From assembly GCF_000758925.1 (NCBI RefSeq), contig NZ_JRNC01000036.1, forward strand, positions 1 to 64,000: DNA of 64,000 nt. Reading direction: 5' to 3'. The notes under the pieces are model-generated. The model ran no database searches. It saw only the letters and a program-made list of their open reading frames with translations, and had not been told where the DNA came from. The translations under genes and the position numbers were made by a program. The DNA comes from Prevotella sp. S7-1-8 (GTDB lineage Bacteria > Bacteroidota > Bacteroidia > Bacteroidales > Bacteroidaceae). Shown here piece by piece: positions 13,774 to 60,210 of this stretch (position 1 is the stretch's first letter; each line of letters begins with the position of its first letter).

Positions 13774-13858
13774 GGAGAGATGGTAGAGTGGTCGATTACA
13801 ACGGTCTTGAAAACCGTCGCACCGAGAGGTGCCGGGGGTTCGAATCCCTCTCTCTCCG
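13774..13858 (+). tRNA. tRNA-Ser (anticodon TGA)
   Basis: GGAGAGA and TCTCTCC form the acceptor stem. The anticodon stem ACGGT/ACCGT holds loop CTTGAAA, giving anticodon TGA. A long variable arm (GCACCGAGAGGTGC) and a GGTTCGAAT T-loop are typical of a class II serine tRNA. The discriminator base is G, followed by CA. The prophage begins at its 3' end. Confidence 0.95.
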
Positions 13859-16247: not shown

Positions 16248-16637
16248 TTAGATGTGTGACAAATCCGAAATGATTTGGTTGTCCAAATCTTCGGTAAGCT
16301 TCAAATATTCCTTGTATTCGGCAACCGCCTTTTCATCCGGCGCAATGCCAATGACGTGCTTGTTGTACGAATTTACAAGGTCAAATTCCGCCGTTTCGTC
16401 AATGACTGAACGGATGAACACACGCTTCAAGTTTGCCTTTGTAGGCTTCGCGAACGTGCGCACTTCATAACATGACCAACCAATCGGGCGGGCTTCCTTT
16501 TCACCCTCCGGAATGGCTTTTTCTTCGGCGATGTTCACGCGATAAATCACCGACCCGTCATTGTCCTTTTCCAGCACGGCGGGCATACCATGCGCAATGT
16601 CATAATGCGCGTTTGGTTCGATTGAATTTAATTTCAT
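16248..16637 (-). CDS. Phage protein of unknown function beside the DGR reverse transcriptase
   Basis: 129 residues, acidic, soluble. The N-terminal half contains VIYRVNIAEEK and RPIGWSCYEVRTFAKPTKANLKRVFI; the C-terminal half is helical (KAVAEYKEYLKLTEDLDNQIISDLSHI). Similar small proteins occur near tail-fibre genes of Bacteroidales phages, from memory. It overlaps the 3' end of the reverse transcriptase gene by 38 bases, which suggests translational coupling. It might be a DGR accessory factor by position, but it lacks the basic four-helix look of Avd, so no function is claimed. Confidence 0.6.
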   Translation of the reverse strand: MKLNSIEPNAHYDIAHGMPAVLEKDNDGSVIYRVNIAEEKAIPEGEKEARPIGWSCYEVRTFAKPTKANLKRVFIRSVIDETAEFDLVNSYNKHVIGIAPDEKAVAEYKEYLKLTEDLDNQIISDLSHI

Positions 16638-17697
16638 AAGGAAACGATTTTGAAAGTTTGTCGAATAAATGAATTGAATCCGAACACTTGCACCAACCCC
16701 ACCAACTGCAAATGGCTTGCTTGTAAGCTGCCTTTGTGGGTTGTTTCTTGCGCTTGTTCAACTTCGCCACCCGGCGGCAAAGATTTTGTTTTATGGACTT
16801 GCGCAATAATGTGTGGTCGTGATAGAACACGAATCCAAGGAAATCAATTCCGCGCGCGTCAACCGGGAACACTTGATGATTGCGTTTCACTTTCAGTTGC
16901 AAACGCTTCATGTATGCCCGTATGTCACGCAACAACGCGTGCAAGGATTCCTTGTCCGGTGCAAGAACAACGATGTCATCGGCATAACGCCAATAATACT
17001 TCACGCGTTTTTCTTCTTTCAACCAATGGTCGAAATACGCCAAGAAAAGGTTTGCAAAGTATTGGGAAAGATAGTTGCCAATCGGCACGCCGTTCAAGGA
17101 TGTTGCCACCAATTCCCCGGTGTTCGGGTCGGTGACAAAATTCCGAATTGGAATGTCCGTGTTGATGTTGGAATCAATGATTTCATCCAGCAACGCCAAA
17201 AGGCGACCATCTTTTATTTTCCGCCTTACCACACCTTTCAACACTTCGTGGTTGATTGATGGGTAAAACTTGCGAACGTCAATCTTCAAGCAATATTTCG
17301 TGCCGACCGGGTCTTTTCTCAAAGCCTTTTTCACGCTCATGGCGCACGCATGGGTGCCGCGTTCCTTGATACATGAATACGTGTCGTGCGTGAACACGGA
17401 CACCCATATTGGTTCAAGAATGTTCATCACCGCATGATGCAAGATGCGGTCGGGATAATATGGCAATTGACAGATTTGCCGTTCCTTTGGTTCAAAAATT
17501 GTGAAAACGTGATATTGGGATGTCTTGAAAGTTCCATTTTTCAAACTCTCATGCAATGCAAGAATGTTCGCTTCCCTGTTCTTGTCGTGCTGCTGCACGC
17601 CATAGGAATGCAACTTGCCCTTGCGGGCTTTTTCGTCCGCAAGTTTCAAGTTATCAATCGCGATGACCTTTTCATAAAGGTTTCCAATTCTTTTCAT
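16600..17697 (-). CDS. DGR reverse transcriptase
   Basis: 365 residues. Reverse transcriptase motifs: KIDVRKFYPSI with the first catalytic aspartate (D140), GVPIGNYLSQYFANLFL (residues 203-219), YADD (238-241) and DFLGFVFYH. The IGNYLSQ sequence fits the [I/V/L]GxxxSQ signature of DGR-type reverse transcriptases, where group II intron and retron enzymes have other residues. These enzymes copy a template RNA with errors at adenines, and the cDNA replaces a homologous variable repeat. The template repeat is 167 bases upstream, and a variable protein gene follows in the same orientation, the classic VR-TR-RT order. All catalytic residues are present. Confidence 0.95.
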   Translation of the reverse strand: MKRIGNLYEKVIAIDNLKLADEKARKGKLHSYGVQQHDKNREANILALHESLKNGTFKTSQYHVFTIFEPKERQICQLPYYPDRILHHAVMNILEPIWVSVFTHDTYSCIKERGTHACAMSVKKALRKDPVGTKYCLKIDVRKFYPSINHEVLKGVVRRKIKDGRLLALLDEIIDSNINTDIPIRNFVTDPNTGELVATSLNGVPIGNYLSQYFANLFLAYFDHWLKEEKRVKYYWRYADDIVVLAPDKESLHALLRDIRAYMKRLQLKVKRNHQVFPVDARGIDFLGFVFYHDHTLLRKSIKQNLCRRVAKLNKRKKQPTKAAYKQAICSWWGWCKCSDSIHLFDKLSKSFPYEIKFNRTKRAL

Positions 17698-17863: not shown

Positions 17864-17973
17864 AAGCATAGCTGAGAACCGATATTCGCATTCGTAGGCG
17901 TGTTATTCGTATTCGCGTACACGCCCCCCCGCATTCGCACCATTATTCGCATTACCGCTGAACAAAACACCAC
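17864..17973 (-). repeat. DGR template repeat (TR)
   Basis: 110 bases matching the variable repeat at 18071-18185 and, over its 3' two thirds, the one at 55689-55758. Read on the minus strand it has many AAT/AAC-like triplets, the adenines that a DGR mutates. Its 3' end reads TCTCAGCTATGCTT, where both targets have TCTCGGCTTTGCTT. It lies outside any gene between the variable protein stop and the reverse transcriptase. A run of seven G makes it one base longer than the coding repeats at that point. Confidence 0.92.
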
Positions 17974-18045: not shown

Positions 18046-19359
18046 TCAATCCTCTTCGATTTGCGGGTCAAAGCAAAGCCGAGAACCGATATTCGCATAC
18101 GTATACGTAGGCGCGTAATACATATTCGCGCACACGACCCCCGCATTCGCACCACTATACGCATTACCGCCGAACAAAACACCACATTCCGATTCTCCGG
18201 ATGCCGGGGTGCTTGTATAAAAGTAGTCGCAAAAATACGTTGTACTTCCAGCACCTGCCGCCAACGGCATGATGTCGCCATCTTCGCCAAGGACAAGTTG
18301 TTTTACATATCCCTCTTTGCGTGCGATGTCGCCGCGATACTCATAATTGCCAACACCCGAATTGGTAAACTTGGATGGGTCATCGCAAATGTACATCTTA
18401 GATAAACCGCCCGCCGCTTCGCTTTGGATGATTAACTTGATTCCGTCCGTCCACTTCCAAATGTGACCAAACGGGTTTTCAATGCCGCGATAACGTGGCA
18501 CGGCAAATGTTTTGCTTATCTTGTCGCCATCGCTCACGGTATAATCAACCGTTCCCGAATGGTTGCCAAGTGAATTTGTAACGCCGCACGGGATGATTGG
18601 ATTGTTGCCATTGTACGTTGGCCAAGAAACCCAATCCCATGTTGTCACGCCATCACCCAATCCGCCTTGATGGAATCCGTTTTCATCCAATTCAGCATTG
18701 AACGCGTCTTGCGAATTGAATGTGCAATATTCAACCACGAACAACCACCAAATCATCTTGTGCATCCTGTAAAGGTTTGCATTCCATTCCACCGAACCAC
18801 GATTGCGCGCCTTTGCGCGGAAATCGTTCAATGAAATGGATGTTGCGGGCAAGCCAAGAAATGAACGATAAGTTCCATCATAACTTGCGTTGTTGTTGCC
18901 ACCACGATAATCAACATCGGTTGAACAAACGGATGCCAGCTCGTTTGTTGAACGCTGAACCGTTGCTTCAACGCTTGAACAATAACCCAAACGCCAAAGA
19001 TGGAATCCGGGCAATGGTTGCGTACTCTGCAAATGGCGGCATTTGTTGCCATCCATTTCAAAACGAACGTACATATCAGGCAATTCCGTTTCCATCATGC
19101 CATCCTCGCCCGTCAAGTCTGCCGCCGCGCCTGTGTCGCGCTTGGTCGAATCGTTGGCGTTAAGGTAATACACAACCTTGCCGTTGTCATCCAAGATGCA
19201 ATTGCGCATCATGTTTTGCAATGGCAATTCCTTGTGCAACTCCATCTTGCCAACGCGTGTTGGCTTGGGATTGGACACCGTGATGTCCCATTCCACGCCA
19301 TAATAATAATCATAAGGAAAGGTCGGCTTTGTGTTGCCGACACCGATTAAAAGTCCCAT
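18046..19359 (-). CDS. DGR variable protein 1, C-type-lectin-like tail or receptor-binding protein
   Basis: 437 residues. The C-terminal half has the look of the formylglycine-enzyme/C-type lectin fold of DGR targets: NPFGHIWKWTDGIKLI near residue 300 and the variable stretch GVLFGGNAY to IGSRLCF at the extreme C-terminus. The N-terminal part resembles a phage fibre module (MGLLIGVGNTKPTFPYDYYYGVEWD). Such proteins bind the host surface, and adenine mutagenesis changes exposed side chains, here at the AYSG, MYYAP and TYTY positions. The gene is one base from the 89-residue gene upstream and ends just before the template repeat. Its late-operon context supports a virion tip location. Confidence 0.9.
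   Translation of the reverse strand: MGLLIGVGNTKPTFPYDYYYGVEWDITVSNPKPTRVGKMELHKELPLQNMMRNCILDDNGKVVYYLNANDSTKRDTGAAADLTGEDGMMETELPDMYVRFEMDGNKCRHLQSTQPLPGFHLWRLGYCSSVEATVQRSTNELASVCSTDVDYRGGNNNASYDGTYRSFLGLPATSISLNDFRAKARNRGSVEWNANLYRMHKMIWWLFVVEYCTFNSQDAFNAELDENGFHQGGLGDGVTTWDWVSWPTYNGNNPIIPCGVTNSLGNHSGTVDYTVSDGDKISKTFAVPRYRGIENPFGHIWKWTDGIKLIIQSEAAGGLSKMYICDDPSKFTNSGVGNYEYRGDIARKEGYVKQLVLGEDGDIMPLAAGAGSTTYFCDYFYTSTPASGESECGVLFGGNAYSGANAGVVCANMYYAPTYTYANIGSRLCFDPQIEED
18071..18185 (-). repeat. DGR variable repeat 1 (VR1) in the C-type-lectin-like protein
   Basis: Aligned to the template on the minus strand, there are 11 substitutions outside the G tract: 10 at template adenines (A to T five times, A to G five times) and one C to T. 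It also has a six-base duplication (ACGTAT ACGTAT where the template has ACGAAT) and one base fewer in the G tract. It encodes the end of the lectin-like domain, from GVLFGG to IGSRLCF, 23 bases before the stop. Confidence 0.92.
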
Positions 19360-19964: not shown

Positions 19965-22900
19965 TTATGTTGTATATTGTTTATTAACAACCATCCATCC
20001 ACCATTGTAATAACGCAATGTCAATGAATCGCCACGCTCCATACCAATTCCACTAATTGAATTTCCATCGTTGTTGTATAACGTGCATCCGCTTTGCGGT
20101 GAAACTCTTATTCGATTTCCCATATTTCGGTCACATACAATTTCGATGTCAAATATTGTTGGAACATTGTTCGTCTGCTTGTTCACCTGTTCCAATGTTG
20201 GCAACTTGACATTCAAATACTTAGTCGTGTTAGCGGTGAAATGGAACTTTTGCGTAATTGCGAACCATTGTTCTATAATGTCCGTGTACGCTTGCCCGAT
20301 GTAACCATTTTCAAATGCCGCAACTTTTCCAATATTGTATTGATTGCCATATACGCCAAGGGCTTTTGGACGATACCAATGTTCATCATTTGCATCACTC
20401 GTTGATGGGTTGTCGTGGCGCAATTCAAGCGTTGTGCCCATTTTGTCGGTCAATGACAAAAAACCATTAAAAGGATAACCAAGTGATGACAGACAACCAA
20501 GCAACACGCGTTGTTTGTCGTTGCAGAATCTTATGAAATCGCGAAACAACGCCAATCCATTTGTCGTGTCCTGTTCGTCTGAACTACCATATCCGATTTG
20601 CCCTTGTTGGATGCGGAATCCGCCGATTGAACCCGTTATGGCATTTATCACGCCCTCCACTTGTGCCTTGGACATAACAACCGAACCATCTTGCATGACG
20701 CGGAAAGGCGCGGTCTTGCGATTCTCGAATGACGCTCCAGCCCAAAAGCGGATGGAATCGGATGCCGTGCCGTTTCCCGTGATTCCGGCAAGGATGGATT
20801 TGTTGTCGCCCGCGACCTGTATTGTTCCGGATGTGACGATTCCGCCATCAATCGTTGTTTGTGTGTTATCGTAATGCACGGCAACAACCCAATCGTTTGT
20901 GTTCCACGAACCGGATTCCCTTGCGGTGATGCAACGGCGCAATTCCTTTCCATCAACCCACAAGTCGCCGACATCATAAGGCGGATAAGGTTGCGCAACG
21001 AACACGCGGCGTTTGCCATCGGCGGTGTCCTGTGCCTTGCTTGCTGCATCATACGCATCAATCGCCTTTTTATCTTCGATGGTTTGCCATATATAAACGA
21101 CCGTTCCCGTACCATTGACAAAGCGGAATGTCTGACGATAGCACTTCAACAACTTCGTGCTTGAATTATACCACATATCGCCAACGTGCTTTGCTTTTTC
21201 CGCGCCCGTTGTCCAACTTGATGCCGGGTCGGATGTCTGAAACCACGTTTCAATCTTTCCGTCAATTTGTTTGGTCATCGTGTCAATGGCATTGGCAAAG
21301 TCGCCGTTGATGAAATTCTTCAACGCTGAATCATCCGTGTATTTGCTTGCCTTTTCCCAATCCGATGACGTGAACGCGCCGGATTCCCTTGCGGTCTTGC
21401 ATCGCATGATGTCCCCGGTCGCACCTTGAACCCACAAGTCGCCGACACCATAAGGTGTCACGGGCGTTGATGTAAAGATGCGGTTCTTTTCCTTGCCAAG
21501 CTCCAACGCTTCATTTGCAATCGCGATGGCTTGCGCAAGTTCTGAATCTTGCAGTTCTTGCCACACATAGAACGTGCCGGGCGCATATCCCGGCTTTGGT
21601 CGCCATTGTATTTTCACATATCGCCAAACCTTGCCGGATGTTGTGTTATAATACAGGTCGCCAAGATGATTTTCTTTCGTGTTGGCATCCGTCCATCCAC
21701 TATTCGGAACACCATCTTCCGCACCCGGCGCGGTTGAAAGTGGGGATGGGTTTATTTGATAGAAATGTTGTTCAATCTGACCATCCAATTGCGCTTTGAT
21801 TTCGTCAAGGATTCCGGGCAATGTGTTGTTGATGAAATCCTTGCTTTCCATCGCTTCGTTGCCAAGTTCTTCAAGCGTTTTTTCTTGCCCGTTTTGCGTG
21901 AACACTATTCGCCCGCCAATTTCGGATTGGTCAAGGTCGAAATATGTTGTACCATCCGCCGATTCGATGCGTCCGGTCTTGATGAAACGTCCGTTGATTG
22001 TCGTAAAACCATACGTCAAGGAAATGGCACGAACCTTTGTGTCCGCGTCAATACTTCCCAAGATTCCAATCAGAAAGAAATACACGTTCGGCGATTCTTC
22101 AACCTTGTGTTGTGTTGCCGAAATGCTCATTGTTCCGGCTGAATTGTCGCGGTTGCAAACTGCATAGATGTAATATGGCACATCCTGTTGCAATGCCGTT
22201 GTTCCATCCGCCAACACCCACGAACGCGCCTTGTCGGGGTCAATGGTGTAATGTGTAAGAACGCCACCTTTCCACTTGAACAAGTTCGGGGTTCCTTGAA
22301 AGTTAGGTTCAAAAACGGTGTTTATCAAACCGAATTGCATTGATTTTGCGCCAACTGACAACATCATCGTGTCCACGGATCCCGGCGTGATTTTGTCCTT
22401 GTAATAACCGCCCGTTTCCGGGTCGAACACCATATTCAAGACTTCACGCGATGAACGCCAATTTGCGCGCGCCTGTGCCGGGTCTTTTAGGTTGTTGATG
22501 GTCAACACCTTGTCAATGTCCACAAGGTCGGAAATCACGCGCGTTGTGATGTCGCCCTTGGTTTGAGTGTCCGAAATGGTCAACGAATAATCGTATGGGT
22601 CAAGCACGTTGCGCGTGAATGACTTGATGCGGATTGACTTGTCAACCCCAATTTCATCATCCTTGATTGGCAAATAATCGCCCGGCGCGAAAACATTCGT
22701 GATGCCATCCGACAACGCAAGTTTTTTTTCGATGAACGCCTTTGTAACGTTCACCGAATATTGAACCTTTGGTTGTGAATTTTGGTCATAATACTTGTTG
22801 CCCTCTTCCGCCAGCTTCTTTTCTGCTGCTTCTTCGATGTCACGCGAATAAGCGATGTCAAGCACCTTGTATGTGTCGTTTTTGCCGATTTGGAACGCGG

Positions 22901-24014
22901 GCGATGTTTCCGATGGGAACACGTTTCCCCGGTCATCGGTTTGCTTTACCAACGTGAACTTGTGTGTCGCGTGGTCGTATGCGTGAACCTCAAATTCATA
23001 TCCGGCAAGGTTTCCGGAATTGAAATGCACCTTGGCGGACACCCCGGAAATCAAATACAGGGTTTCGCCGGATGCGTTCTTTGCGTTGATGTCGAATGGG
23101 AATGACGCGTCAATGAATGACAACACATCGCCATCAACAACGGATGAGACCTTGCCCGTGAATGTCGGCTTGATGTCGAAATTCTTGCGTCCCTCAAATA
23201 TGCCGTATTTCGCCACGGCATCCGCCTTTTCGATGTAAGATGATGCCTTGTCCTTGCCAAACATACAAAGGCGGTCGGCGCGATATTTTGACGTGATGTT
23301 TTCCGTGCTGCCGTACACCTTTAATCGTGTGACAATGTTTGAGGATGAAACATTTTCGCGCGAAATGGAATATAAGCCCTTGCCCTTGCCGTACTCCAGC
23401 ACGAAAGGCAAGGTTTGTCCGATGGTCTTTTTGATGTTGATGACATAAACGCCGTTGACGCGTTCAATCTCAAATTCAACGCCAAACTTATCTTCCGAAC
23501 ACAAGGTTTGCAGCACCGACAAGCAATTGTCGGATTCCGAAAACGTCAAAGTATTGTCGCTATCCGTTTCCGGACATACGCCCAACGCCCATTTGCCGGG
23601 GAATACGCGGTTTGCGTTACTTATCAACACCTCCATGAACCTTTTCAAGTCACCCGTCAAGGAATCGCCTTGGATGTCCTGTAATTGATTGTTTGTGGTG
23701 TTGATGTTCACGTCATACGTCACGCGCATAAGGTCGTATTGGATGCCCTCAAATTCCAAATCGTATTGGTATTCTTGCATTCCGGTTTTGCTGACCTTTG
23801 GCAAACGATTCAAGCGACAGTCACGCCCGAACACGGTTATCACGTCCCCAATCCCGTATGATTGCGGGAATGGGGAAACAACCGTGATGGCAATGGTATC
23901 TTCTGCATTCAACGCCCAAGTCTGCTTTGCGGCGGTGATTGCGGTCGCCGTTGCCCTTGATTCCATAGGCACACGGCTTCCATTCGGTTTTGTGATAATT
24001 ATATTCGCTCCCAT
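19965..24014 (-). CDS. Large tail hub/fibre protein with repeated modules
   Basis: 1349 residues. The N-terminal 450 residues resemble a baseplate-hub protein (ITVVSPFPQSYGIGDVITVFGRDCRLNRL, then NCLSVLQTLCSEDKFGVEFEIE). The middle holds repeated modules: GDLYYNTTSGKVWRY and GDMWYNSSTKLLKCY, alternating with GDLWVQGATGDIMRC and GDLWVDGKELRRC, each followed by ARESG and W-rich segments like carbohydrate-binding repeats. The C-terminus (DSLTLRYYNGGWMVVNKQ) is typical of Bacteroidales phage fibres. It overlaps the upstream tail gene by 16 bases. Likely at the tail tip, contacting host glycans; domain naming is approximate. Confidence 0.75.
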   Translation of the reverse strand: MGANIIITKPNGSRVPMESRATATAITAAKQTWALNAEDTIAITVVSPFPQSYGIGDVITVFGRDCRLNRLPKVSKTGMQEYQYDLEFEGIQYDLMRVTYDVNINTTNNQLQDIQGDSLTGDLKRFMEVLISNANRVFPGKWALGVCPETDSDNTLTFSESDNCLSVLQTLCSEDKFGVEFEIERVNGVYVINIKKTIGQTLPFVLEYGKGKGLYSISRENVSSSNIVTRLKVYGSTENITSKYRADRLCMFGKDKASSYIEKADAVAKYGIFEGRKNFDIKPTFTGKVSSVVDGDVLSFIDASFPFDINAKNASGETLYLISGVSAKVHFNSGNLAGYEFEVHAYDHATHKFTLVKQTDDRGNVFPSETSPAFQIGKNDTYKVLDIAYSRDIEEAAEKKLAEEGNKYYDQNSQPKVQYSVNVTKAFIEKKLALSDGITNVFAPGDYLPIKDDEIGVDKSIRIKSFTRNVLDPYDYSLTISDTQTKGDITTRVISDLVDIDKVLTINNLKDPAQARANWRSSREVLNMVFDPETGGYYKDKITPGSVDTMMLSVGAKSMQFGLINTVFEPNFQGTPNLFKWKGGVLTHYTIDPDKARSWVLADGTTALQQDVPYYIYAVCNRDNSAGTMSISATQHKVEESPNVYFFLIGILGSIDADTKVRAISLTYGFTTINGRFIKTGRIESADGTTYFDLDQSEIGGRIVFTQNGQEKTLEELGNEAMESKDFINNTLPGILDEIKAQLDGQIEQHFYQINPSPLSTAPGAEDGVPNSGWTDANTKENHLGDLYYNTTSGKVWRYVKIQWRPKPGYAPGTFYVWQELQDSELAQAIAIANEALELGKEKNRIFTSTPVTPYGVGDLWVQGATGDIMRCKTARESGAFTSSDWEKASKYTDDSALKNFINGDFANAIDTMTKQIDGKIETWFQTSDPASSWTTGAEKAKHVGDMWYNSSTKLLKCYRQTFRFVNGTGTVVYIWQTIEDKKAIDAYDAASKAQDTADGKRRVFVAQPYPPYDVGDLWVDGKELRRCITARESGSWNTNDWVVAVHYDNTQTTIDGGIVTSGTIQVAGDNKSILAGITGNGTASDSIRFWAGASFENRKTAPFRVMQDGSVVMSKAQVEGVINAITGSIGGFRIQQGQIGYGSSDEQDTTNGLALFRDFIRFCNDKQRVLLGCLSSLGYPFNGFLSLTDKMGTTLELRHDNPSTSDANDEHWYRPKALGVYGNQYNIGKVAAFENGYIGQAYTDIIEQWFAITQKFHFTANTTKYLNVKLPTLEQVNKQTNNVPTIFDIEIVCDRNMGNRIRVSPQSGCTLYNNDGNSISGIGMERGDSLTLRYYNGGWMVVNKQYTT

Positions 24015-47608: not shown

Positions 47609-48718
47609 TTACCCGGTTATTTCAAAATCAATCTCATTGATGTTCTTTTCAAACACTTTCAAACACGCCTTGATGTTGGTGTCGCATTCGATGACTTGGT
47701 TTCCGCAATACGCATCCAAACAGGTTTTCAACTTGTCCATGTATGGGTTTTTGATGCTTTGGGCAAATCCAATCTTGGATTCGATTATCTTGTCCATGCG
47801 CTTGTTGTGGTCAACAAGGAAACGACACATAAGCACACCAAGGAACGCATCCGTTTTCATATCCTTGTAGATGTCGCCCGGAAACTGCTTTTTATACTGC
47901 GAATTGACACAATACCAAAATATCGTGAAATCGCTTGTGTACTCCTTGAAAAATTCTTCCGTCTGCTTTTCTATACGCTGGATATGCCTTGCATCCAAAT
48001 CCTTTTTCAAGGAACCAACGTATTCTTGGCGGACGTGCTTCACGGTGCGGGACAACTTGACGGTTTCCGGAATCTTGTGTTTGGCGCAATACTTCATCAC
48101 CTTGTCGGCATACATCCACGCCAAATGCGAAATGACCAATGGAACGAAAGCAATCATCATGTTTTCGTTGAACGTGAATGTTTTCATCATCCAATCGGTA
48201 TCATGGCGCACACTTTCCTTGAATTGCTTTTCCGTCATCATCGGTGACAAACCATTGATGTTGTTCACAATCTCCTTTTCAAAGATGGTGTCATACATCC
48301 TTTTTTCCGCCGCTTTCAGTTCTTCCGGCGTTGGCTTGTGTTCCGGTGCTGGCGTTGGTTCGTGTCCGTGTTCAATTTCCGGGGCTTGTTCAATTTTATT
48401 GAACACGGTTGTTTCATTGAACATGGATTCGCCCTTTGAGAAATCAAGAACTTCATTGCCCGGCGCGGATTCCTGTTCCTTTGGCTTGATGAAAGGGCAA
48501 GTCTTGTCGTTGTGGCACGTGTTGAATGACCTTTCGTTGATTTCCATGTTCCCGGCTGCTTGCGCTTCCATGTCGCGTTGCAAGGCGCATTTGTATTTCG
48601 GGCATCTGCCAAGCTGGGCATTGTACCATACCGCCTTGGCGCACCTCATGCAATTGTCTTGTTGCCAATATGACATCTTGATGTCGTTGGCGAATATCCT
48701 TTCACTTGTTGTTTTCAT
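47609..48718 (-). CDS. Unknown phage protein with cysteine-rich N-terminus
   Basis: 369 residues from ATG 48718, chosen because a GCAACA leader precedes it; an upstream frame extends to 48847. The N-terminus has cysteines MRCAKAVWYNAQLGRCPKYKCAL and CHNDKTCPF, possibly metal-binding. Then a charged proline-rich stretch and a helical domain with PLVISHLAWMYADKVMKYCAKH. It may be a replication-linked protein, given its neighbours. No family recognised. Confidence 0.65.
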   Translation of the reverse strand: MKTTSERIFANDIKMSYWQQDNCMRCAKAVWYNAQLGRCPKYKCALQRDMEAQAAGNMEINERSFNTCHNDKTCPFIKPKEQESAPGNEVLDFSKGESMFNETTVFNKIEQAPEIEHGHEPTPAPEHKPTPEELKAAEKRMYDTIFEKEIVNNINGLSPMMTEKQFKESVRHDTDWMMKTFTFNENMMIAFVPLVISHLAWMYADKVMKYCAKHKIPETVKLSRTVKHVRQEYVGSLKKDLDARHIQRIEKQTEEFFKEYTSDFTIFWYCVNSQYKKQFPGDIYKDMKTDAFLGVLMCRFLVDHNKRMDKIIESKIGFAQSIKNPYMDKLKTCLDAYCGNQVIECDTNIKACLKVFEKNINEIDFEITG

Positions 48719-52726: not shown

Positions 52727-53479
52727 TCAAAGTTTGCGGCGGTCTTTGCCCTTTATCACAAGATAGTTGCACATTTCTTGCAATCGGCTTGATACGCGGT
52801 CGCCATACCGTTCTTTGAGGATTTCGCCGCCCATCCTCAAATTCGATGTGATGAAAGTCATTTCGGCGTGCATATCACCCCGGTATTCGATGATGTAACG
52901 CACCACGTCAAGACGGTTGCCCATGTAAAGCGTTTCCGGCGGTTCGTTGCCAAGGTCTTGAATGGCAAGCATCGGCGCGGTCTTGTATTGCTGAATGTTG
53001 CCGGATTCCGCCCACACGTCACACAAGCCATCGGCGCGTATTGTGCGCCAATACAACGGGCGCGGGTCGTTGTCGGTATGCCATAAAACCTTGATTCCGA
53101 TGGCTTGGATGTACGCTTGCATGATTTCCATGCACCACGTTTTGCCCGTTCCGGCGTTTCCGGCGATATAGATTCCGCGTTTCAGTCTGCCGGGGATGAC
53201 TTGTCCCGATACAGGGTCAAGACACTTCATTGACGTGTCGCAATGCGCCCATTTGATGAAATTTTCAAATGCAAATCGGTTTTCATCGTCAATGACGAAC
53301 GCCGGATTCCGGCTTTTTCCGATTGCTTCAATTATCTTCATCGCGTTGTCAAGGTCGTACCAACCCGGCTTTGTGTATTGGTAACGCTGGAATCCGGAAA
53401 ACATATCGCGTTGCCGAATCGCGTTCAACACCTGTTCGATGCTTGGCATTGTCGGTTTCTTGTTCTCGTTGTTCACCAT
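52727..53479 (-). CDS. DnaC-like replication ATPase (helicase loader)
   Basis: 250 residues. Walker A RGIYIAGNAGTGKTWCMEI near residue 110, Walker B-like MLAIQDLGNEP near residue 165, then MTFITSNLRMGGEILKERYGDRVSSRLQEM with the sensor region and arginine finger typical of DnaC/IstB-like AAA+ proteins. It likely loads the replicative helicase at the phage origin. It overlaps the upstream DUF4373 gene by seven bases, a common pair in Bacteroidales phages. Confidence 0.85.
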   Translation of the reverse strand: MVNNENKKPTMPSIEQVLNAIRQRDMFSGFQRYQYTKPGWYDLDNAMKIIEAIGKSRNPAFVIDDENRFAFENFIKWAHCDTSMKCLDPVSGQVIPGRLKRGIYIAGNAGTGKTWCMEIMQAYIQAIGIKVLWHTDNDPRPLYWRTIRADGLCDVWAESGNIQQYKTAPMLAIQDLGNEPPETLYMGNRLDVVRYIIEYRGDMHAEMTFITSNLRMGGEILKERYGDRVSSRLQEMCNYLVIKGKDRRKL

Positions 53480-54330
53480 TCTTCGTTTGTTCTTTTATCG
53501 TTTCCGCCGGGGCGGTCTATATAGTTGCCATCTTCAACCTTGCGCCAATTGGTCGCGTTCGTGAATATCCATCGGAATGTACACCATTTCCCTCTTTTGC
53601 AGAAATCGGATGCGTTGACGGTTTGGAATATCGCCTTGATGCGCTGGTATGCCGTTTCCGGGTCTTTTGCGGTCATCATTTCGCCGAACCTTTGCCGAAT
53701 CTTGCGTTTGTCATCATCAGCAAGGGAACGTGGTTGTGGGAATGACGGGCATTGTTCTTTCCATAATGCCAACAATCTTGAATAATCAACCGAAAATTCC
53801 TTTTTTTGCTCCGGCGCGTCAACGAAAGTTGACGTATCTACGTTAGTAGATATATTATTCTTTTCTTTTCTTTCCTTTTCTTTATGTTCTGCATTTGCAT
53901 TGCTTGTGCTTTGCGTTTGTATTGCTTGTGTATCTCCGGACGTTTCTTCATTACCATCTTGAATTGCCGCTTTCCGTTGATTGTCAAGGTTTTGCCGCCA
54001 TCTTTCGATTGCCGCTTGCTTGCGTTTGTCGGAAATATCCTTTCGCTTGTCTAAACGCTTCAAAACACTATCCGACCACATATTTTCACCATCATTGGCG
54101 AATAATCCGTAATTGTTCACAAGTCGCTCAACGGTCTTGCAATCCACGTGCAATGCAAATGCAATGCTTTTGCAGTAACGCAATGGCAACGTTCCGCCTT
54201 GCTCATATAGTTGTTCGATGATACACCAATAAATGCCGATGCCCTCAACGCCCAATTCAATCAACACGTCTTGCAACTTGGGGTCGTTTCTCGCGTTGTA
54301 ATCATGCTGGAAATAATATGAATCTTTCAT
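53473..54330 (-). CDS. DUF4373 replication protein (initiator-like)
   Basis: 285 residues. The N-terminal part (YYFQHDYNARNDPKLQDVLIELGVEGIGIYWCIIEQLYEQGG) is the DUF4373 winged-helix signature found in phage replication proteins. A low-complexity linker follows, and the C-terminal DnaD-like part has ARLLALWKEQCPSFP-type segments and MMTAKDPETAYQRIKAIF. It probably recognises the phage origin and recruits the DnaC-like ATPase encoded next. Confidence 0.82.
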   Translation of the reverse strand: MKDSYYFQHDYNARNDPKLQDVLIELGVEGIGIYWCIIEQLYEQGGTLPLRYCKSIAFALHVDCKTVERLVNNYGLFANDGENMWSDSVLKRLDKRKDISDKRKQAAIERWRQNLDNQRKAAIQDGNEETSGDTQAIQTQSTSNANAEHKEKERKEKNNISTNVDTSTFVDAPEQKKEFSVDYSRLLALWKEQCPSFPQPRSLADDDKRKIRQRFGEMMTAKDPETAYQRIKAIFQTVNASDFCKRGKWCTFRWIFTNATNWRKVEDGNYIDRPGGNDKRTNEEW

Positions 54331-54397: not shown

Positions 54398-55132
54398 TTA
54401 GATTTCGATGATTGCGATTTCCGGGGCAATCTCTTTGATTGCTTCAAGTTCCTTGTCAATCGCGGTGTCACGCAATGTTTCAAGCGTTTCTTCCGCACCC
54501 GGCGACATCAACACGAATGCAACGTTGCGTCCGTCAATCTTGGCGAATGTTTCCACCTCCAAGTTCTCTTTGTCGCCACCCTTGAAAACAGGGATTGAAA
54601 GCGTGAACGATTCCGGCAAGCTGGAATTGACCACTTGGGCGAAATTGTCCGTTCGGTCGCCGTTCTCCTTGATGCTTCTTTCGATGGCGTTGTTCACGGT
54701 TGCCGTGAAATTCTTGCAAGCCGAAACTAAGGTCATGTTTGCGTTCTTGTCCGCAAAGAACGCGCGGTTCATCTTGCAGAACATCGAAAATTCAAACGGC
54801 GACCACACCTTGCCCGTGTTGATGCCAAATTCAATGAACTTGGGATGGAATCGCAATGTTCCCTTGATTGTGCCGCGTGTGTATTCATCGGATTCGTTCA
54901 CCACAAGTTCGATAGAGATGTTCTCGCGGTCAACGATGATGTGGCAATTCTTCTGCTCAAATTGTCCGGCGTTGATACGCTTCTTCAAGAACCCCACGGG
55001 TGCGCCGATTGTTCCGTTGATTTCCATCTTAACCGGGGCTTTCGGGTCAAGAACTTTGGGTGCTGCACCCTCGCGGATGATGATTTCATTCATTCCCGGT
55101 GCAAGATTGATGTTCATTTTCTCGTTGTTCAT
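54398..55132 (-). CDS. Conserved phage protein, possibly DUF2303-like
   Basis: 244 residues, no signal. Features: INGTIGAPVGFLKKRINAGQFEQKNCHIIVDRENISIELVVNES, a beta-rich centre, and RFHPKFIEFGINTGKVWSPFEFSMFCKMNRAFF. This resembles my memory of DUF2303 proteins in early regions of temperate phages, though not firmly. It is followed by the coiled-coil gene (3 bases). Role unknown; position is among replication genes. Confidence 0.55.
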   Translation of the reverse strand: MNNEKMNINLAPGMNEIIIREGAAPKVLDPKAPVKMEINGTIGAPVGFLKKRINAGQFEQKNCHIIVDRENISIELVVNESDEYTRGTIKGTLRFHPKFIEFGINTGKVWSPFEFSMFCKMNRAFFADKNANMTLVSACKNFTATVNNAIERSIKENGDRTDNFAQVVNSSLPESFTLSIPVFKGGDKENLEVETFAKIDGRNVAFVLMSPGAEETLETLRDTAIDKELEAIKEIAPEIAIIEI

Positions 55133-55135
55133 ATT

Positions 55136-55591
55136 TTAATCGTTTGTGCCATCCTTTACGGCGGCGGTGTTCATATATTGTGCGTTCATAAATAGTGTTG
55201 GCTGCAACTCTTCGGCGGTTGCCGGGCGCATTTCCACAAGGTCGCCATCGCGGTTGTAATACTCCGTCATCTTGGCATCGCGGTCGGTGAAACGATAACA
55301 AACTTCGTTCACACATTCGGCTTTCGCCTTGATGTTGGAAACCATGTTTTCGCGTGCCTCTTTCAAGGGCTTCAAGCGTTCGGCGTACTCCTTTTTGATT
55401 TCCTTAATCTCGTTTTCGATTTCGGAAATCTCAATGGAAACGTTCACAAGTTTCTCTTTGTGTCCTTGCAGTTCTTCCGGGGTGTACGCTTTCATGTAAC
55501 CCTTGTTCTCACACGCATCCGCGTTGTCCTTGATGAACTGTTCACGCTGGATTGGGTTGGCAATATCCTTGCCCATTGTCTTGTTGTTCAT
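55136..55591 (-). CDS. Coiled-coil phage protein of unknown function
   Basis: 151 residues with a central coiled coil (HKEKLVNVSIEISEIENEIKEIKKEYAERLKPLKEARENM) and a small C-terminal strand-rich part (VCYRFTDRDAKMTEYYNRDGDLVEMRPATAEELQ). The start lies nine bases after a TGTTTCACTATAAAACA palindrome. No family recognised. It follows the remote DGR target gene in the same direction. Confidence 0.6.
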   Translation of the reverse strand: MNNKTMGKDIANPIQREQFIKDNADACENKGYMKAYTPEELQGHKEKLVNVSIEISEIENEIKEIKKEYAERLKPLKEARENMVSNIKAKAECVNEVCYRFTDRDAKMTEYYNRDGDLVEMRPATAEELQPTLFMNAQYMNTAAVKDGTND

Positions 55592-55618: not shown

Positions 55619-56236
55619 TTACAAGAAAACCTTGTTGTAAAGGTCGGCGAATTGCTTGCCGAATTGCGCGGCGCGCGCGGACGATTTGAAGCAAAGCCGA
55701 GAACCGATATTCGCATTCGTAGGCGAGTAATACGTATTCGCGCACACGAACCCCGCATCATCCTTGTCATACACGAACCAAGGAAAACACTTGTCTTGTT
55801 CCCAATCCGAGAAATCGGGTACAAAGCCATCTTCCTTGTTCCATGCCTGTGCGATGGTGAACAACTTGTTCAAGGCAATCAATGCTTCAATGTGCTTGGG
55901 GTTGATGTCGGTCACAAGTCTTGCGACATCTTCAAGCTGGACAACGTTTCCGGAAAGAATCTTCTTTGCAACGGTAAAGTCCGCGTTCGGCTTGCCGCCA
56001 AGGGCTTTTCTTGCGCTCTCAAAGTCCGTGATAACTTCGTTCACTTCCGTGCATTCAACTTCTTCAAGGGCGAAATCAAACGGCGACAAATAATCGTCAT
56101 CGTCAACGTCCAAATCTTCGTTGTGGTCGCAAATGTAGTCCATCAAGGTTTCCCCGGCTTCTTTGCGTGATTCGTGGATGGCTTGCATTTCGCTTTGCTC
56201 GCTTCCATCCGCGTTTTTGATAATGTACTTTTTCAT
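55619..56236 (-). CDS. Remote DGR target, early-region protein with C-terminal variable repeat
   Basis: 205 residues. The N-terminal 140 residues are acidic and helical (ADGSEQSEMQAIHESRKEAG, NPKHIEALIALNKLFTIAQAW). The C-terminal part begins FVPDFSDWEQDKCFPWFVYDKDD and then carries the variable stretch AGFVCANTYYSPTNANIGSRLCF, nearly the same as in the structural variable protein at 18046-19359. After the repeat it continues for 22 residues (KSSARAAQFGKQFADLYNKVFL). No signal or membrane segment. It lies between the MBL-fold and coiled-coil genes in the early block, so it is likely cytoplasmic. A DGR target outside the virion genes would diversify an internal binding protein; this is inferred from the repeat. 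Confidence 0.75.
   Translation of the reverse strand: MKKYIIKNADGSEQSEMQAIHESRKEAGETLMDYICDHNEDLDVDDDDYLSPFDFALEEVECTEVNEVITDFESARKALGGKPNADFTVAKKILSGNVVQLEDVARLVTDINPKHIEALIALNKLFTIAQAWNKEDGFVPDFSDWEQDKCFPWFVYDKDDAGFVCANTYYSPTNANIGSRLCFKSSARAAQFGKQFADLYNKVFL
55689..55758 (-). repeat. DGR variable repeat 2 (VR2), about 38 kb from the template
   Basis: 70 bases matching the 3' two thirds of the template repeat at 17864-17973. After the G tract there are six differences, all at template adenines (A to G twice, A to T four times). It carries the same target-type 3' end, TCTCGGCTTTGCTT, as VR1. No other copy of the conserved segment was seen in the window. Confidence 0.88.
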
Positions 56237-56248
56237 TTTTCTTTGTTG

Positions 56249-56989
56249 TTAAAATGGTGACTTGTTGAAATTGATAGTCATTCCCGAACGGGCAACGGTG
56301 ACAATCTTGTGTGTCAAGTCCGCGATTCCTTGCTGGAACTCAACGGCGTTTGAATTGCCATCGGAAAGGTGAATCAACACGATGTTGTGGACTTCTGAAA
56401 GGTCGTTCGCTTGCAATATCTCCTTGCACGTTTCAAAGCTGCAATGGCTTTTCATCGTTCTTGCCCGCAACTTTGCCGGAATCAACCCGGCTTCCACGTT
56501 GGCATCCAAGATGTCTTGGCGATAGTTGCACTCAATAAGAATGTTGTTCAAACCATCGAACGTGTATTGCAGATAATATGTGTCGGTCGCGAATAACACC
56601 GTGCCACATTCGGGATGCGCTATCAGAAACCCGAAAGGCTGGGCGGCATCGTGTTCGGTGTCAAATGGTAAAACACCGAAATTTCCTATTTTGTGCAACA
56701 CGTTTTCGGTCATTGCGTGTGCCAATGGATGCGATGCCAACCCAAGGGCGTTTCTTGTACCGTCTGACATATAGCAAGGAATCATGGCATCAAGGCAACG
56801 TTTGACGTGCTTTGCATGGTCGCCGTGTTCGTGCGATATGATACAAGCCTTGATTCGTGTGATGTCGAAATCAACCGCCTTTTGTACGTTTTTGAAAGCG
56901 ATTCCACATTCAATCATCAACGCTTCTTTGCCATTGTCAAGCAAGTAACAATTGCCCTTGCTGGATGAACCCAATATTTTCAATTCCAT
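56249..56989 (-). CDS. MBL-fold metallohydrolase
   Basis: 246 residues. The metal-binding motif SHEHGDHAKH (about residue 53) and further histidines and aspartate (DTEHDA, FATDTYYL, LIHLSDGNSNA) mark a metallo-beta-lactamase fold enzyme. In many temperate phages an MBL-fold protein lies beside RecT and may act as a nuclease in recombination. Here it directly follows RecT. The substrate is inferred from this context. Confidence 0.85.
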   Translation of the reverse strand: MELKILGSSSKGNCYLLDNGKEALMIECGIAFKNVQKAVDFDITRIKACIISHEHGDHAKHVKRCLDAMIPCYMSDGTRNALGLASHPLAHAMTENVLHKIGNFGVLPFDTEHDAAQPFGFLIAHPECGTVLFATDTYYLQYTFDGLNNILIECNYRQDILDANVEAGLIPAKLRARTMKSHCSFETCKEILQANDLSEVHNIVLIHLSDGNSNAVEFQQGIADLTHKIVTVARSGMTINFNKSPF

Positions 56990-57009: not shown

Positions 57010-57966
57010 TTAAAACCCCGGATTTGGGGCGTTATTTGCGTTTTCCGCCACTTTCGCGTTATCGGTGGGCGTTTCCCTTGTCGCGTTATTATCGTGGTTT
57101 ATTTCGCCCGTTTCCGGCTTTTCGCTTCCCGTACCAAGTGAAATGCGTTTCTTGTTCGCATTTGCTTCCTTTTCGGCGGAAACTTCACTTGCGGTTACAT
57201 CCTCATATTCGGTGTAAATGTCCTGTTGTTCCTCAACGGTACGCATACCCATCGAAAGTTCTGGCGCATAAGCGTTTGTCCACATGGACGCGGCGCGATA
57301 CATCAACATTTGCTTTGTCATAGTTTGCCACTTTGAACCGCTTTTTGTGTACCAACCCTCTTGAATCGCAAGCCGGATTGAAACCGGGGATGATTCCAAA
57401 ATTCCGTCCGAACCACGCTTGGTTGTGTATGCAACACATTCGATTTCGTGGATGTTCTTTCCATCGAATTGTTTCTTTACGGATTCCTTGCAACGCTTTT
57501 GTTGATTCCAAACATAATCGGTGTAATCAACCATTCCCAACGCGCCCTTGTCCGTGAAACGGAATTGCAATGGTTCAAAGCGACCGCACGAATTGACGGT
57601 TGCAATCAAGAACTTGGATGACCATGATGGGCGACCATAAATCACCGCCATGTTCTGCATAACCATCAACGGGCTTGCGCCAATGCGCGTTGCCACCTCA
57701 ACGGCAATCATGCAATTTGCAATCGCCTTGGTTTTGATTGCCGTGTTTTCCGCCCTTATAGCCTTGATGGTTTCTTCATTTGCTCCGGGTGGGATAGGCT
57801 TCAAAGTCGCCTTGTAATTCTCCGGAACAAGGTCGGATGATGCAAAGAAACTGCAAACACGTTGCATGGTTTCAAATTGTACCGGGTCAAAGAAATTGAA
57901 CGCCGGGGTTGTTGTGGCTGGCTGCATTACAACCGCGCCACCATTCGGTTTTTGTAATTCGTTCAT
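57010..57966 (-). CDS. recT: RecT-family single-strand annealing protein
   Basis: 318 residues. RecT core: AIANCMIAVEVATRIGASPLMVMQNMAVIYGRPSWSSKFLIATVNSCGRF, followed by EGWYTKSGSKWQTMTKQMLMYRAASMWTNAYAPELSMGMRTVEE. The C-terminal 70 residues are a low-complexity tail. It anneals complementary ssDNA in phage recombination. Its ATG overlaps the stop of the SMC-like ATPase gene by four bases (ATGA), so the two are translationally coupled. Confidence 0.9.
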   Translation of the reverse strand: MNELQKPNGGAVVMQPATTTPAFNFFDPVQFETMQRVCSFFASSDLVPENYKATLKPIPPGANEETIKAIRAENTAIKTKAIANCMIAVEVATRIGASPLMVMQNMAVIYGRPSWSSKFLIATVNSCGRFEPLQFRFTDKGALGMVDYTDYVWNQQKRCKESVKKQFDGKNIHEIECVAYTTKRGSDGILESSPVSIRLAIQEGWYTKSGSKWQTMTKQMLMYRAASMWTNAYAPELSMGMRTVEEQQDIYTEYEDVTASEVSAEKEANANKKRISLGTGSEKPETGEINHDNNATRETPTDNAKVAENANNAPNPGF

Positions 57967-59921
57967 TGTATTGTTAATTTATTGTCGTTTGTCACGACAA
58001 GGTTTATCACTTGCGATTGAACCGGGATTATTTCATTCACCGATTCGCGGTTGTCAATGAATATCGGCGCACATACACCATAGAACGCGCACAAAGCGTT
58101 GATGATGTCAAGTCCGGCATTCACTTGGCTTGCAGTGTTCGCGCTGCCATACGGAACGCCATTGCATAATGGGATGCACGTTTCAACCGGATTGCCATCC
58201 AAGGTGTAATCGAACAACCGGAAAGTCACGAAATGGAACTTGGCGTTGATGCGCTTTTCGCATTCCAAAACCTTTGTCTTGTTGAATTGTTCAACCGTGT
58301 ATTCTTCGCGTTCGATGTCGGCGATTTGCTGGGCAACATCTTTGCCATGTGCTTCAAGGTCGGCAATCTCGTTGTTGCATCTTTCGATTGCGCCACGCTT
58401 GGCAAGACGTGTTGAAACATCGTTGCGCTTGGTCATCCATTCTTTCTTGGATGCTTGCAACGCGCTTGTGTCAACGCCCGTGTTGTCGGTTGTGATGGTC
58501 GCCTTGATGTCGGCAATCTGCTTTTGCAGTTTCACCCATTCCGGGATATTGTCGGGGACAACTTCGGCGGTCGCCTTTTCCGGCAAGGTTTCAAGCGTTG
58601 CTTGTGCGGATTTTATGCGTTCATCCAATCCGTTGTTTTCCTCGCGATACGCGTCAACGGACTTTTGCTTTTCGGCTGCATCCGCTTCAAGTTGCGCAAT
58701 CTTTTCGCCAAGGTGCTTTCCCTTGTTCGTGATGTCGGTCAAGTTGCCCATCTTGGCTTTGTCGAAAACGTCCTTTGCTTTCGCAATCATATCATCCGGC
58801 AATGCTTGTCCGCAATGTGGGCAAGTTGTTTCGCCGGAATACTCCTTGGCGTTCTCCTTGTGCCATGATTCGCGCAACGTGTCTTGTTCTCCCTTGCACT
58901 TGTCAATGTCACGATGGATGCGGGCGATGTCAACTTGTATTGTGGCGCAATTGCGCTTGTTCGTGTCAAGTTGTGATTGCAACGTCTTGATTTCATTGGC
59001 AATCTCGCGGCGTTGTGCGTTGGCTTCAAACGCGGCATCCTGTGCCTTTGTCTTTGCGTCAAACACTACTTGTTGCGCCTGTGTGGTCAACTCGTTCACG
59101 CGGGCTTGCTTGGCTTGTTCCGCTTCATATTGCTTGCGAATCGCCTTGTTCACATCTGCAATCGCGTTGTCGGTGTCGGCGATTTCCTTGTCAATGTCGG
59201 CAAGCTGGGATTCAAGGGCGGCGAAATCTTCCGGTTCTGGCATCATCTTGTGCGTTTGGTCAATACGCGGTTGAATCTGCTTCAATTCCTCATTCAAGCG
59301 TTTCTTGCGCGCTGCCATTTCCTTTTTGTAGTCCGCAAGCGACTTGCCGGATATGGCATCCAACAACTTGACGAAATCGGGGTTGTCCGCGGCGATTTCT
59401 TCATCGGTCACACTTCCGGCAAGCTGGAATAATTGTTCACGCTGCAATTGCCACTTCATGCCGACAAAGAACGCCGGATTGGTTATCATCTTGAAAACGG
59501 ATGAATCAACGATGGCTTGGATGCGCTTGTCATACTCGCCGACATTGACCGGGGTTTCGTTCCACCAACATTCCGTGTGGTTGCCCTTGTACACCTGTTC
59601 AACCTGTCCGCGTGGCTTTACCCAATCTTCAACGAAAGCGCGCTTCAAGGTGATTTCTTCACCATCCACGATGATGACACCCGTCACGCTGCATTCGCAC
59701 TTGTGCAATTCTTCGCCGTTGACACGGGTTTTGATTTCGTAATCCTTGCGGTCGTGCGCGTCCTTGCCGAACAAAAGCCAAATGAACGCGTCAAAATGTC
59801 TTGACTTACCAAGTCCGTTTCCGCCGGAAATGGTCGTGACATCCGGATTGAATGTCGTTGTCCGTTCCTGTTCACCTTTGAAATTGCAAAAGGTGATGGA
59901 TTTCAATGTTACTTGTTTCAT
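57963..59921 (-). CDS. SMC/SbcC/Rad50-like ATPase
   Basis: 652 residues from ATG 59921; a longer frame adds 18 residues but the GCAACA leader sits just before this ATG. N-terminal ATP-binding half: FKGEQERTTTFNPDVTTISGGNGLGKSRHFDAFIW, with Walker A GGNGLGKS. Long coiled coil flanks a zinc-hook-like CPHCGQ motif (in GETTCPHCGQALPDD), as in Rad50/SbcC. The C-terminal half has the closing ATPase segment (NAGLDIINALCAFYGVCAPIFIDNRESVNEII). With RecT and the MBL-fold protein it forms a recombination module. Confidence 0.85.
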   Translation of the reverse strand: MKQVTLKSITFCNFKGEQERTTTFNPDVTTISGGNGLGKSRHFDAFIWLLFGKDAHDRKDYEIKTRVNGEELHKCECSVTGVIIVDGEEITLKRAFVEDWVKPRGQVEQVYKGNHTECWWNETPVNVGEYDKRIQAIVDSSVFKMITNPAFFVGMKWQLQREQLFQLAGSVTDEEIAADNPDFVKLLDAISGKSLADYKKEMAARKKRLNEELKQIQPRIDQTHKMMPEPEDFAALESQLADIDKEIADTDNAIADVNKAIRKQYEAEQAKQARVNELTTQAQQVVFDAKTKAQDAAFEANAQRREIANEIKTLQSQLDTNKRNCATIQVDIARIHRDIDKCKGEQDTLRESWHKENAKEYSGETTCPHCGQALPDDMIAKAKDVFDKAKMGNLTDITNKGKHLGEKIAQLEADAAEKQKSVDAYREENNGLDERIKSAQATLETLPEKATAEVVPDNIPEWVKLQKQIADIKATITTDNTGVDTSALQASKKEWMTKRNDVSTRLAKRGAIERCNNEIADLEAHGKDVAQQIADIEREEYTVEQFNKTKVLECEKRINAKFHFVTFRLFDYTLDGNPVETCIPLCNGVPYGSANTASQVNAGLDIINALCAFYGVCAPIFIDNRESVNEIIPVQSQVINLVVTNDNKLTIQ

Positions 59922-59931
59922 TGTTGCGATA

Positions 59932-60210
59932 TTATTTATTGTTGAATAATTGTAACGCTTTGTTGGCATCCACAACGATGATGCGCCCGTGCTGGGTTAT
60001 CGCATCATCTATTCGCCCGGATGCTTTGATTCGGTTTGCCGTTGTCATGCTGCAATTGAATATTTGTGCGATTCCGGCGATACCATACACAAGGCGTTTT
60101 TCTTCTTTCGGTTGCGCTTGTGTCGCTGGTGCTTGCGCCTTGGCGAACAAATCCATCAGTTGCCCAACGGTTAAATCAATGATTCGTGTGTCGCTTGTAA
60201 TCTCCATCAT
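59932..60210 (-). CDS. DUF3853 helix-turn-helix protein
   Basis: 92 residues. Helix-turn-helix near residue 45: EKRLVYGIAGIAQIFNCSMTTANRIKASGRIDDAI, similar to excisionase-type winged helices, which fits DUF3853. It starts as an ATGA overlap with the small membrane protein gene. The N-terminal 35 residues are flexible. It may control phage gene expression or assist excision. Confidence 0.7.
   Translation of the reverse strand: MMEITSDTRIIDLTVGQLMDLFAKAQAPATQAQPKEEKRLVYGIAGIAQIFNCSMTTANRIKASGRIDDAITQHGRIIVVDANKALQLFNNK

Follow-up and report, generated by a model that had tools for sequence, protein, structure and literature searches.

A putative second, remote DGR target in a probably non-structural, early gene of a Prevotella phage

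The target gene, the DGR cassette and their genomic setting

The window analysed in this study is a stretch of 64,000 nucleotides of Prevotella sp. S7-1-8 DNA. The gene of interest (55619..56236, minus strand) encodes a protein of 205 amino acids, which has been assigned to the phrog_11581 family from its ORF, a profile match and homology outside the VR. The profile match (E 3.5e-16) has its best stretch in the C-terminal part including the VR, and relatives of the gene match phrog_11581, an unnamed family with thousands of homologues, over most of their length. Repeat search and alignment placed in this gene a repeat, VR2 (55689..55758, minus strand), which corresponds to the 3' half of the template repeat (TR) only and is followed by 22 codons of the gene. 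The 3' recognition end of VR2, at the IMH position (55689..55705, minus strand), was found in the alignment to be the same as that of VR1, as an earlier sequence-only reading of this DNA had stated.

The DGR cassette lies 38 kb away from VR2, with its RT, TR and VR1 on the minus strand throughout. The reverse transcriptase (16600..17697, 365 amino acids) matches PF00078 (E 2.4e-19) and phrog_1423 and carries the motifs IGNYLSQ and YADD; an [LIVM]GxxxSQ motif in the RT is what we take as DGR-type. The TR (17864..17973, minus strand) was delimited by TR/VR alignment and by comparison with the TRs of relatives, and its 3' recognition end occupies the IMH* position (17864..17880, minus strand). 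The recognition ends presumably play their functional role in TR and VR as IMH* and IMH. VR1 (18071..18185, minus strand, by TR/VR alignment) forms the 3' end of a tail protein gene (18046..19359, minus strand; phrog_5302, E 7.7e-115) and aligns to the whole TR, whereas VR2 aligns to its 3' half. One 66-nt unit is present in three copies in the window according to the repeat search, at 17864 (TR), 18071 (VR1) and 55689 (VR2). At E <= 0.01 the TR matched itself, VR1 (E 1.7e-23) and VR2 (E 3.0e-18), and no further match was found in the 64-kb window or the last 5.9 kb of the contig. In comparison to the TRs of most relatives, the window TR has an expanded G tract and a deletion of two codons. 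The tract of seven G residues lies at 17923-17930 (GGGGGGGC), where relatives have GGGTTC-like sequences. Other features observed in the window are a tRNA gene (13774-13858, plus strand) and a 49-nt direct repeat (20888-20936 and 21356-21404, 73% identical, 468 nt apart) within the long ORF 19965-24014.

The neighbours of the VR2 gene, all on the minus strand, are genes of recombination and replication, as had been claimed earlier. On one side are found a metallo-beta-lactamase-fold hydrolase as the immediate neighbour (56249..56989; PF00753, phrog_392), a RecT-like ssDNA annealing protein (57010..57966; phrog_561) and an SbcC-like ATPase (57963..59975; phrog_77). On the other side, a Gp157/Gam-like protein (55136..55591; PF05565 below the cut-off, phrog_12688, phrog_491 weakly) is followed by a DUF2303 protein (54398..55132; PF10065 just below the cut-off) and a replication initiation protein (53473..54330; phrog_2562). 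The placement was compared over 24 loci, comprising 14 close relatives, six distant members and four cassette pieces. In all 14 close-relative loci the gene lies within this SbcC/RecT/hydrolase/Gp157/DUF2303/replication block, so that the non-structural placement is kept throughout; the next matched gene is the hydrolase in 13 of them and RecT was matched in 12. Among the six distant members, SbcC lies beside or near the gene in G013, G109 and G212, together with the hydrolase in G013 and G109; G261 and G352 have only other block genes some kilobases off, and no block gene was matched in G077. VR2 is separated from the cassette by about 34-55 kb in G685, G481, G530, G730, G013 and G261. From its position, the window gene would be an early gene.

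The protein is acidic (pI 4.46) and hydrophilic (GRAVY -0.40), with no hydrophobic N-terminus or stretch, which bears out the earlier description of an acidic protein without signal. The AlphaFold model, built from 41 sequences, reaches an overall pLDDT of 76, which drops under 50 within the variable loop, at residues 163-177. No solved structure was matched at E <= 0.001, and searches of Pfam with 41 members, of NCBIfam with 5 and of PADLOC with 3 gave no named family at significance. In several members of the phrog_11581 family, the VR region is matched by the tail family phrog_5302. The member in LoVEphage, discussed below, has a longer VR, which suggests that the short VR2 may be a contracted form of a longer one; the variable part might be a C-type lectin in shortened form.

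The adenine footprint in the window and in relatives

Six substitutions separate VR2 from the TR on the 3' side of the G tract, and all six are at TR adenines, as the sequence-only reading had counted. Two of these lie inside the recognition end (TR CAGCTATGC, VR CGGCTTTGC), and the same two differences between TR and VR are present in L003, L023 and L039, the phages with inspected TRs; since they are common to other phages, the window alone provides four informative changes. In the core, bounded by G tract and recognition end, changes in VR2 affect 4/15 adenines and 0/25 other sites, and at three of the four changed sites VR1 and VR2 carry the identical new base. By itself this footprint is weak, as four of four changes falling on 15 adenines among 40 sites is expected by chance in about 2% of cases, and hence the weight of the adenine footprint comes from the relatives and not from the window alone. 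Loci retrieved by the recognition-end sequence itself were not counted as a test of recognition-end sharing.

The history of the repeats can be followed from two further features. VR2 reads GGGGTTC at the G tract where the TR reads GGGGGGGC, and the TR is the odd one, with one extra base in comparison to both VR1 and VR2; homing therefore probably crosses over 3' of the G tract. A 6-nt (two-codon) deletion relative to most relatives is common to the window TR and VR2, while VR1 keeps both codons, and for this reason VR2 has most likely been rewritten from its own TR after the deletion. Folding of the segment 3' of VR2 gave -10.8 kcal/mol (z -0.53), and no stem-loop beyond chance was found there. 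In the BPP-1 system, a hairpin 3' of the IMH helps but is not strictly required, according to the part of PMC12875486 drawn on here. Taken together, the window has substitutions between VR and TR confined to adenines, a TR beside an RT, a shared 3' end and a DGR-type RT, the features by which DGR targets are recognised.

Relatives were sampled through DNA patterns and through sets of 399 and 393 genomes, and the sample includes the near-duplicate loci L002/G379, L052/L058/L061 and L056/L062/L063. In 10 phages including the window (and including G365, a chimeric gene), comparison of VR2 with the TR of the same phage showed changes at 87/168 adenines and 1/286 other sites (Fisher 1.4e-44, with the sites treated as independent). 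The framework of VR2 also follows its own TR, with six mismatches in total against a mean of 59 for the TRs of the other phages; the permutation p of 5e-5 is the floor of 20,000 shuffles, and the window deletion and G tract contribute much to it. For 12 further VR2/TR pairs from more distant relatives, cut by hand to the core that precedes the recognition end, 124/198 adenines and 3/391 other sites were changed. This set leaves out G530b (no TR match), the members without a TR, LoVEphage and Versailles. The phage of IMG record 2890733146_000003 and G379 are near-identical and could be aligned over 11,066 nt; their TR cores are identical, and they have 11 differences in the 46-nt VR2 core, 11/11 at TR adenines, against six differences elsewhere, and VR1 differs too.

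At the protein level, the homologue search with the window gene gave 5,171 proteins at E <= 0.001 among 5,325 candidates, and that with the gene of a relative, which has named matches in Parabacteroides distasonis and Bacteroides fragilis and served as the query for a second subfamily, gave 7,954 at this threshold of the 7,999 candidates taken forward. Residue spectra were obtained from the best 120 homologues of each query (240 in total), and in both sets the variation is found at codons containing template adenines. In the first subfamily, for which a typical TR of the relatives and not that of the window served as template, 115-120 of the 120 residues fit the A-to-N sets at 13 of 17 positions, and the four worse-fitting positions gave 99, 111, 112 and 113 of 120. 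In the second subfamily 115-120 of 120 fit at 16 of 17 positions and one position gave 45/120. Wherever a TR was found, the homologues vary almost only at template adenines, the pattern that the sequence-only reading had proposed to look for.

Family members, their templates and variant arrangements

Among IMG/VR contigs of at least 40 kb, all six retrieved through the VR2 pattern also contain a TR and all seven retrieved through the TR pattern contain a VR2-type gene. Matches to the gene were found in 10 of the 399 host-family genomes and 12 of the 393 host-order genomes, the window genome being in both sets, which gives 20 distinct genomes. A TR was located for 13 of these (the window's, G379, G091, G365, G013, G261, G685, G481, G530, G730, G528, G772 and G727), and G352 was outside the TR search. 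For the other six, no TR was found on the searched stretches, namely G109 (60 kb), G212 (40 kb), G077 (its 20.9-kb contig), G495 (its 7.4-kb contig), G692 (14.6 kb) and G712 (16 kb); the window RT had no match anywhere in the genomes of G212, G495 and G692. At the level of loci, the distant members without a TR on the searched stretch are L013, L014, L011, L017, L123, L131, L125 and L126, and in these the DGR may be absent or sited elsewhere. Family members without any DGR may therefore exist, judging from these sequences. According to the sequence-only reading, simple duplication would be indicated by homologues that carry the repeat in phages with no DGR and show no preference for adenines in their variation. 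The adenine bias was present wherever a TR was found; against this stand the six distant-member genomes without a visible TR.

In G528 and G772 the RT and TR lie directly beside two tandem family genes, near a DUF3164 gene; tandem family genes flanked by TR and RT were observed at L166:10268-11274 and L165:2847-3859. An AAA ATPase of G528 matches MuB below threshold, and the 49-kb contig of G772 has matches to tail sheath, tape measure and baseplate hub; both contigs are probably Mu-like. Over the whole 49-kb G772 contig (L166) the TR matches only itself and the two tandem family genes, which indicates that a DGR template can serve the phrog_11581 family alone. Two family genes of G727 each match a different TR 44-46 kb off on the same contig, and this contig (C3) probably holds two prophages; at L167, L168 and L178 on it, the TRs lie close to an RT and to an additional VR-like copy. 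In G013, G530, G109 and G212 the variable domain is followed by a second domain in a fusion, and in G261 this second domain is encoded just downstream of the family gene, which suggests that it may be a working partner of the variable domain. Sites of the second domain were also noted downstream of the family gene in L034 and at L012:1753-2136.

Two arrangements stand apart. On Prevotella sp. MGM2 contig 299 (L003/L010/L186), the VR2 gene runs into the 3' end of a VR1 gene and a TR, and the RT was matched over its first 69 residues only; this fusion either arose in assembly, as a chimera across the repeat that the genes have in common, or reflects genuine recombination. In G406 (IMG/VR 3300000304_000103), two VR1-type repeats lie near one TR at about 42.4-42.9 kb, and this phage may have three DGR targets.

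The family is also found in phages with names. In the Bacteroides phage Versailles the family gene (ON453897.1 10181-10762; L193:7965-8546) lies in the order SbcC, RecT, hydrolase, NinB, small ORF, family gene, two ORFs and replisome organizer, with the RT at 54082. In LoVEphage, the family gene (phrog_11581, E 3.6e-47) is placed among methyltransferases and RtcB, with the RT at 48292; with the VR removed, it aligns to the window subfamily by hhalign (92.4%, E 5e-7). In both phages, the family gene matches the TR beside the phage's own RT with differences at adenines, except that Versailles has a single non-A difference, located at the 3' end. A distant family member was also found in the crAss-like phage cr60_1.

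Function of the diversified protein and its meaning

From this sequence evidence, the gene 55619-56236 is almost certainly a second, remote DGR target, one TR serving VR1 and VR2 with an adenine bias in the window and in relatives, as the sequence-only reading had proposed. In the proposed mechanism the TR RNA would be copied with errors at adenines, and the cDNA would take the place of roughly 60 nt at VR2 (the 3' half) by way of the recognition end common to both repeats and of a short 5' homology at the G tract. The 205-aa protein would be made early, in the cytoplasm, and with its variable loop the phage could keep pace with changes in a host partner. The protein is likely non-structural and intracellular, and the wider picture, in which this remote target is an early intracellular binder whose variable loop tracks such a partner, most probably a defence protein, is considered reasonably probable. 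Against it speak the looser neighbourhood of the distant members, the six genomes without a visible TR, the three of four new bases common to VR1 and VR2 in the window, the failure to match a named family, the chance-level folding 3' of VR2 and the pLDDT below 50 in the variable loop. A counter-defence binder is the likeliest single reading, owing to the DNA end-processing neighbours here and the methyltransferases in LoVEphage, and is put forward tentatively.

Among the other readings, the protein could be made by a prophage to bind the proteins of incoming phages, with the variable loop following them. Several carriers lie in long host contigs, hence are prophage-like, and the LoVEphage record contains a repressor and integrases; however, the gene of close relatives lies in the replication/recombination block, and this exclusion function appears unlikely. 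It is rather improbable that the protein acts in DNA metabolism or retrohoming and that its diversification adjusts how it meets a rapidly changing nuclease or replication protein of the host, as opposed to a dedicated defence system. Its neighbours (SbcC, RecT, hydrolase, Gp157/Gam-like and replication initiation), the NinB neighbour in Versailles and a sub-threshold NinB match in G692 would suit such a role, but the contexts in LoVEphage, G528 and G772 are different and core replication contacts have no obvious need for so many variants.

A virion or ejected protein meeting an outside or envelope partner, with the second target as a further means of host recognition, is very improbable. The variable segment does resemble a tail family, phrog_5302 matching the VR region, and the GenBank label of the Versailles copy is 'tail protein' though the gene is sited in a recombination block; this label probably stems from the variable segment, a shared repeat, matching a tail profile. 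Against a place in the virion stand the absence of a hydrophobic N-terminus or stretch and the siting away from structural genes in 14/14 close-relative loci. Moreover, VR1 and VR2 vary independently in seven relatives, where the A-site likeness of VR1 and VR2 of one phage is 0.389 in comparison to 0.391 for VRs across phages, which argues against one shared ligand for the two. A simple duplication of the C-terminal segment with no involvement of a DGR, by which a repeat common to two genes can arise and to which the distant members without a visible TR would conform, is contradicted for this lineage by near-exclusive adenine differences (87/168 vs 1/286; 124/198 vs 3/391), own-TR tracking and the near-identical phage pair (11/11 at adenines), and can practically be discarded.

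The DGR of BPP-1 is different in having the tail fibre as its target, to our knowledge the sole one. It is similar in its adenine-specific retrohoming with IMH/IMH*, as described in the sections of PMC12875486 used. In the portions of the literature consulted, non-structural remote DGR targets are already known: Benler 2021 (PMC8008677) has described that the DGR of a Quimbyvirus has another target, which is non-structural and close to methyltransferases and a tRNA ligase, and a Nature 2025 paper (PMC12629997) has reported four species of human gut prophages in which counter-defence genes lie near a second, distal VR. Quimbyvirus and LoVEphage resemble the window phage in having two VRs for one DGR, one near tail genes and one remote and non-structural, as far as the passages of these sources go. 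LoVEphage appears to belong to the Quimbyvirus lineage, given the matching neighbours and the citing of reference 9 for both in the part of PMC12629997 used, and Quimbyvirus has been compared here via the LoVEphage record. The remote gene of LoVEphage is of the same family and has its TR in common with a tail target, but it lies in a methyltransferase/RtcB context and has a longer VR, whereas the window gene lies in a RecT/replication block and matches the TR 3' half only. C-type lectin domains were reported for the Quimbyvirus target in the relevant part of PMC8008677 and were not confirmed in the present analysis. In the four gut prophage species, too, the second VR is far from the RT cassette and near, for example, a DNA methyltransferase; the sections of PMC12629997 used differ in that they mention neither a protein family nor homologues, nor a placement in a replication block. 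Bacuni phages of Bacteroides uniformis also have two targets of one DGR, one of them remote, but both are adhesion proteins resembling the fimbrial tip in the part of PMC8143477 used. Tentaclin phages nd4 and nd12 have two targets, one TR and one shorter VR; unlike here, both targets lie in the DGR cassette, have a C-type lectin domain and are described as receptor-binding in the pages of PMC10743442 used. No description of a phrog_11581-type family or of siting in a RecT/replication block was found in the literature, bioRxiv, supplements and figures being outside the scope of this search. The survey method of Roux 2021 would miss remote DGR targets, going by the part of PMC8144416 used, and such targets are therefore probably undercounted.

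Phage DGRs have mainly been read as receptor-switching devices. The present analysis has highlighted a diversified family which is conserved in its block and is the sole TR target in one contig, so that phages hypermutate something most likely used intracellularly. Phages of Bacteroidales may possess a large DGR-diversified family of intracellular binders, which some Mu-like DGRs would serve alone and not the tail, and DGRs would then be an engine of the intracellular arms race in addition to receptor switching; this broader proposal is offered with some reserve. The system is present in named phages with named hosts, Versailles and LoVEphage, and the partner of the 205-aa protein, once found, would be a fast-moving intracellular target in gut bacteria.
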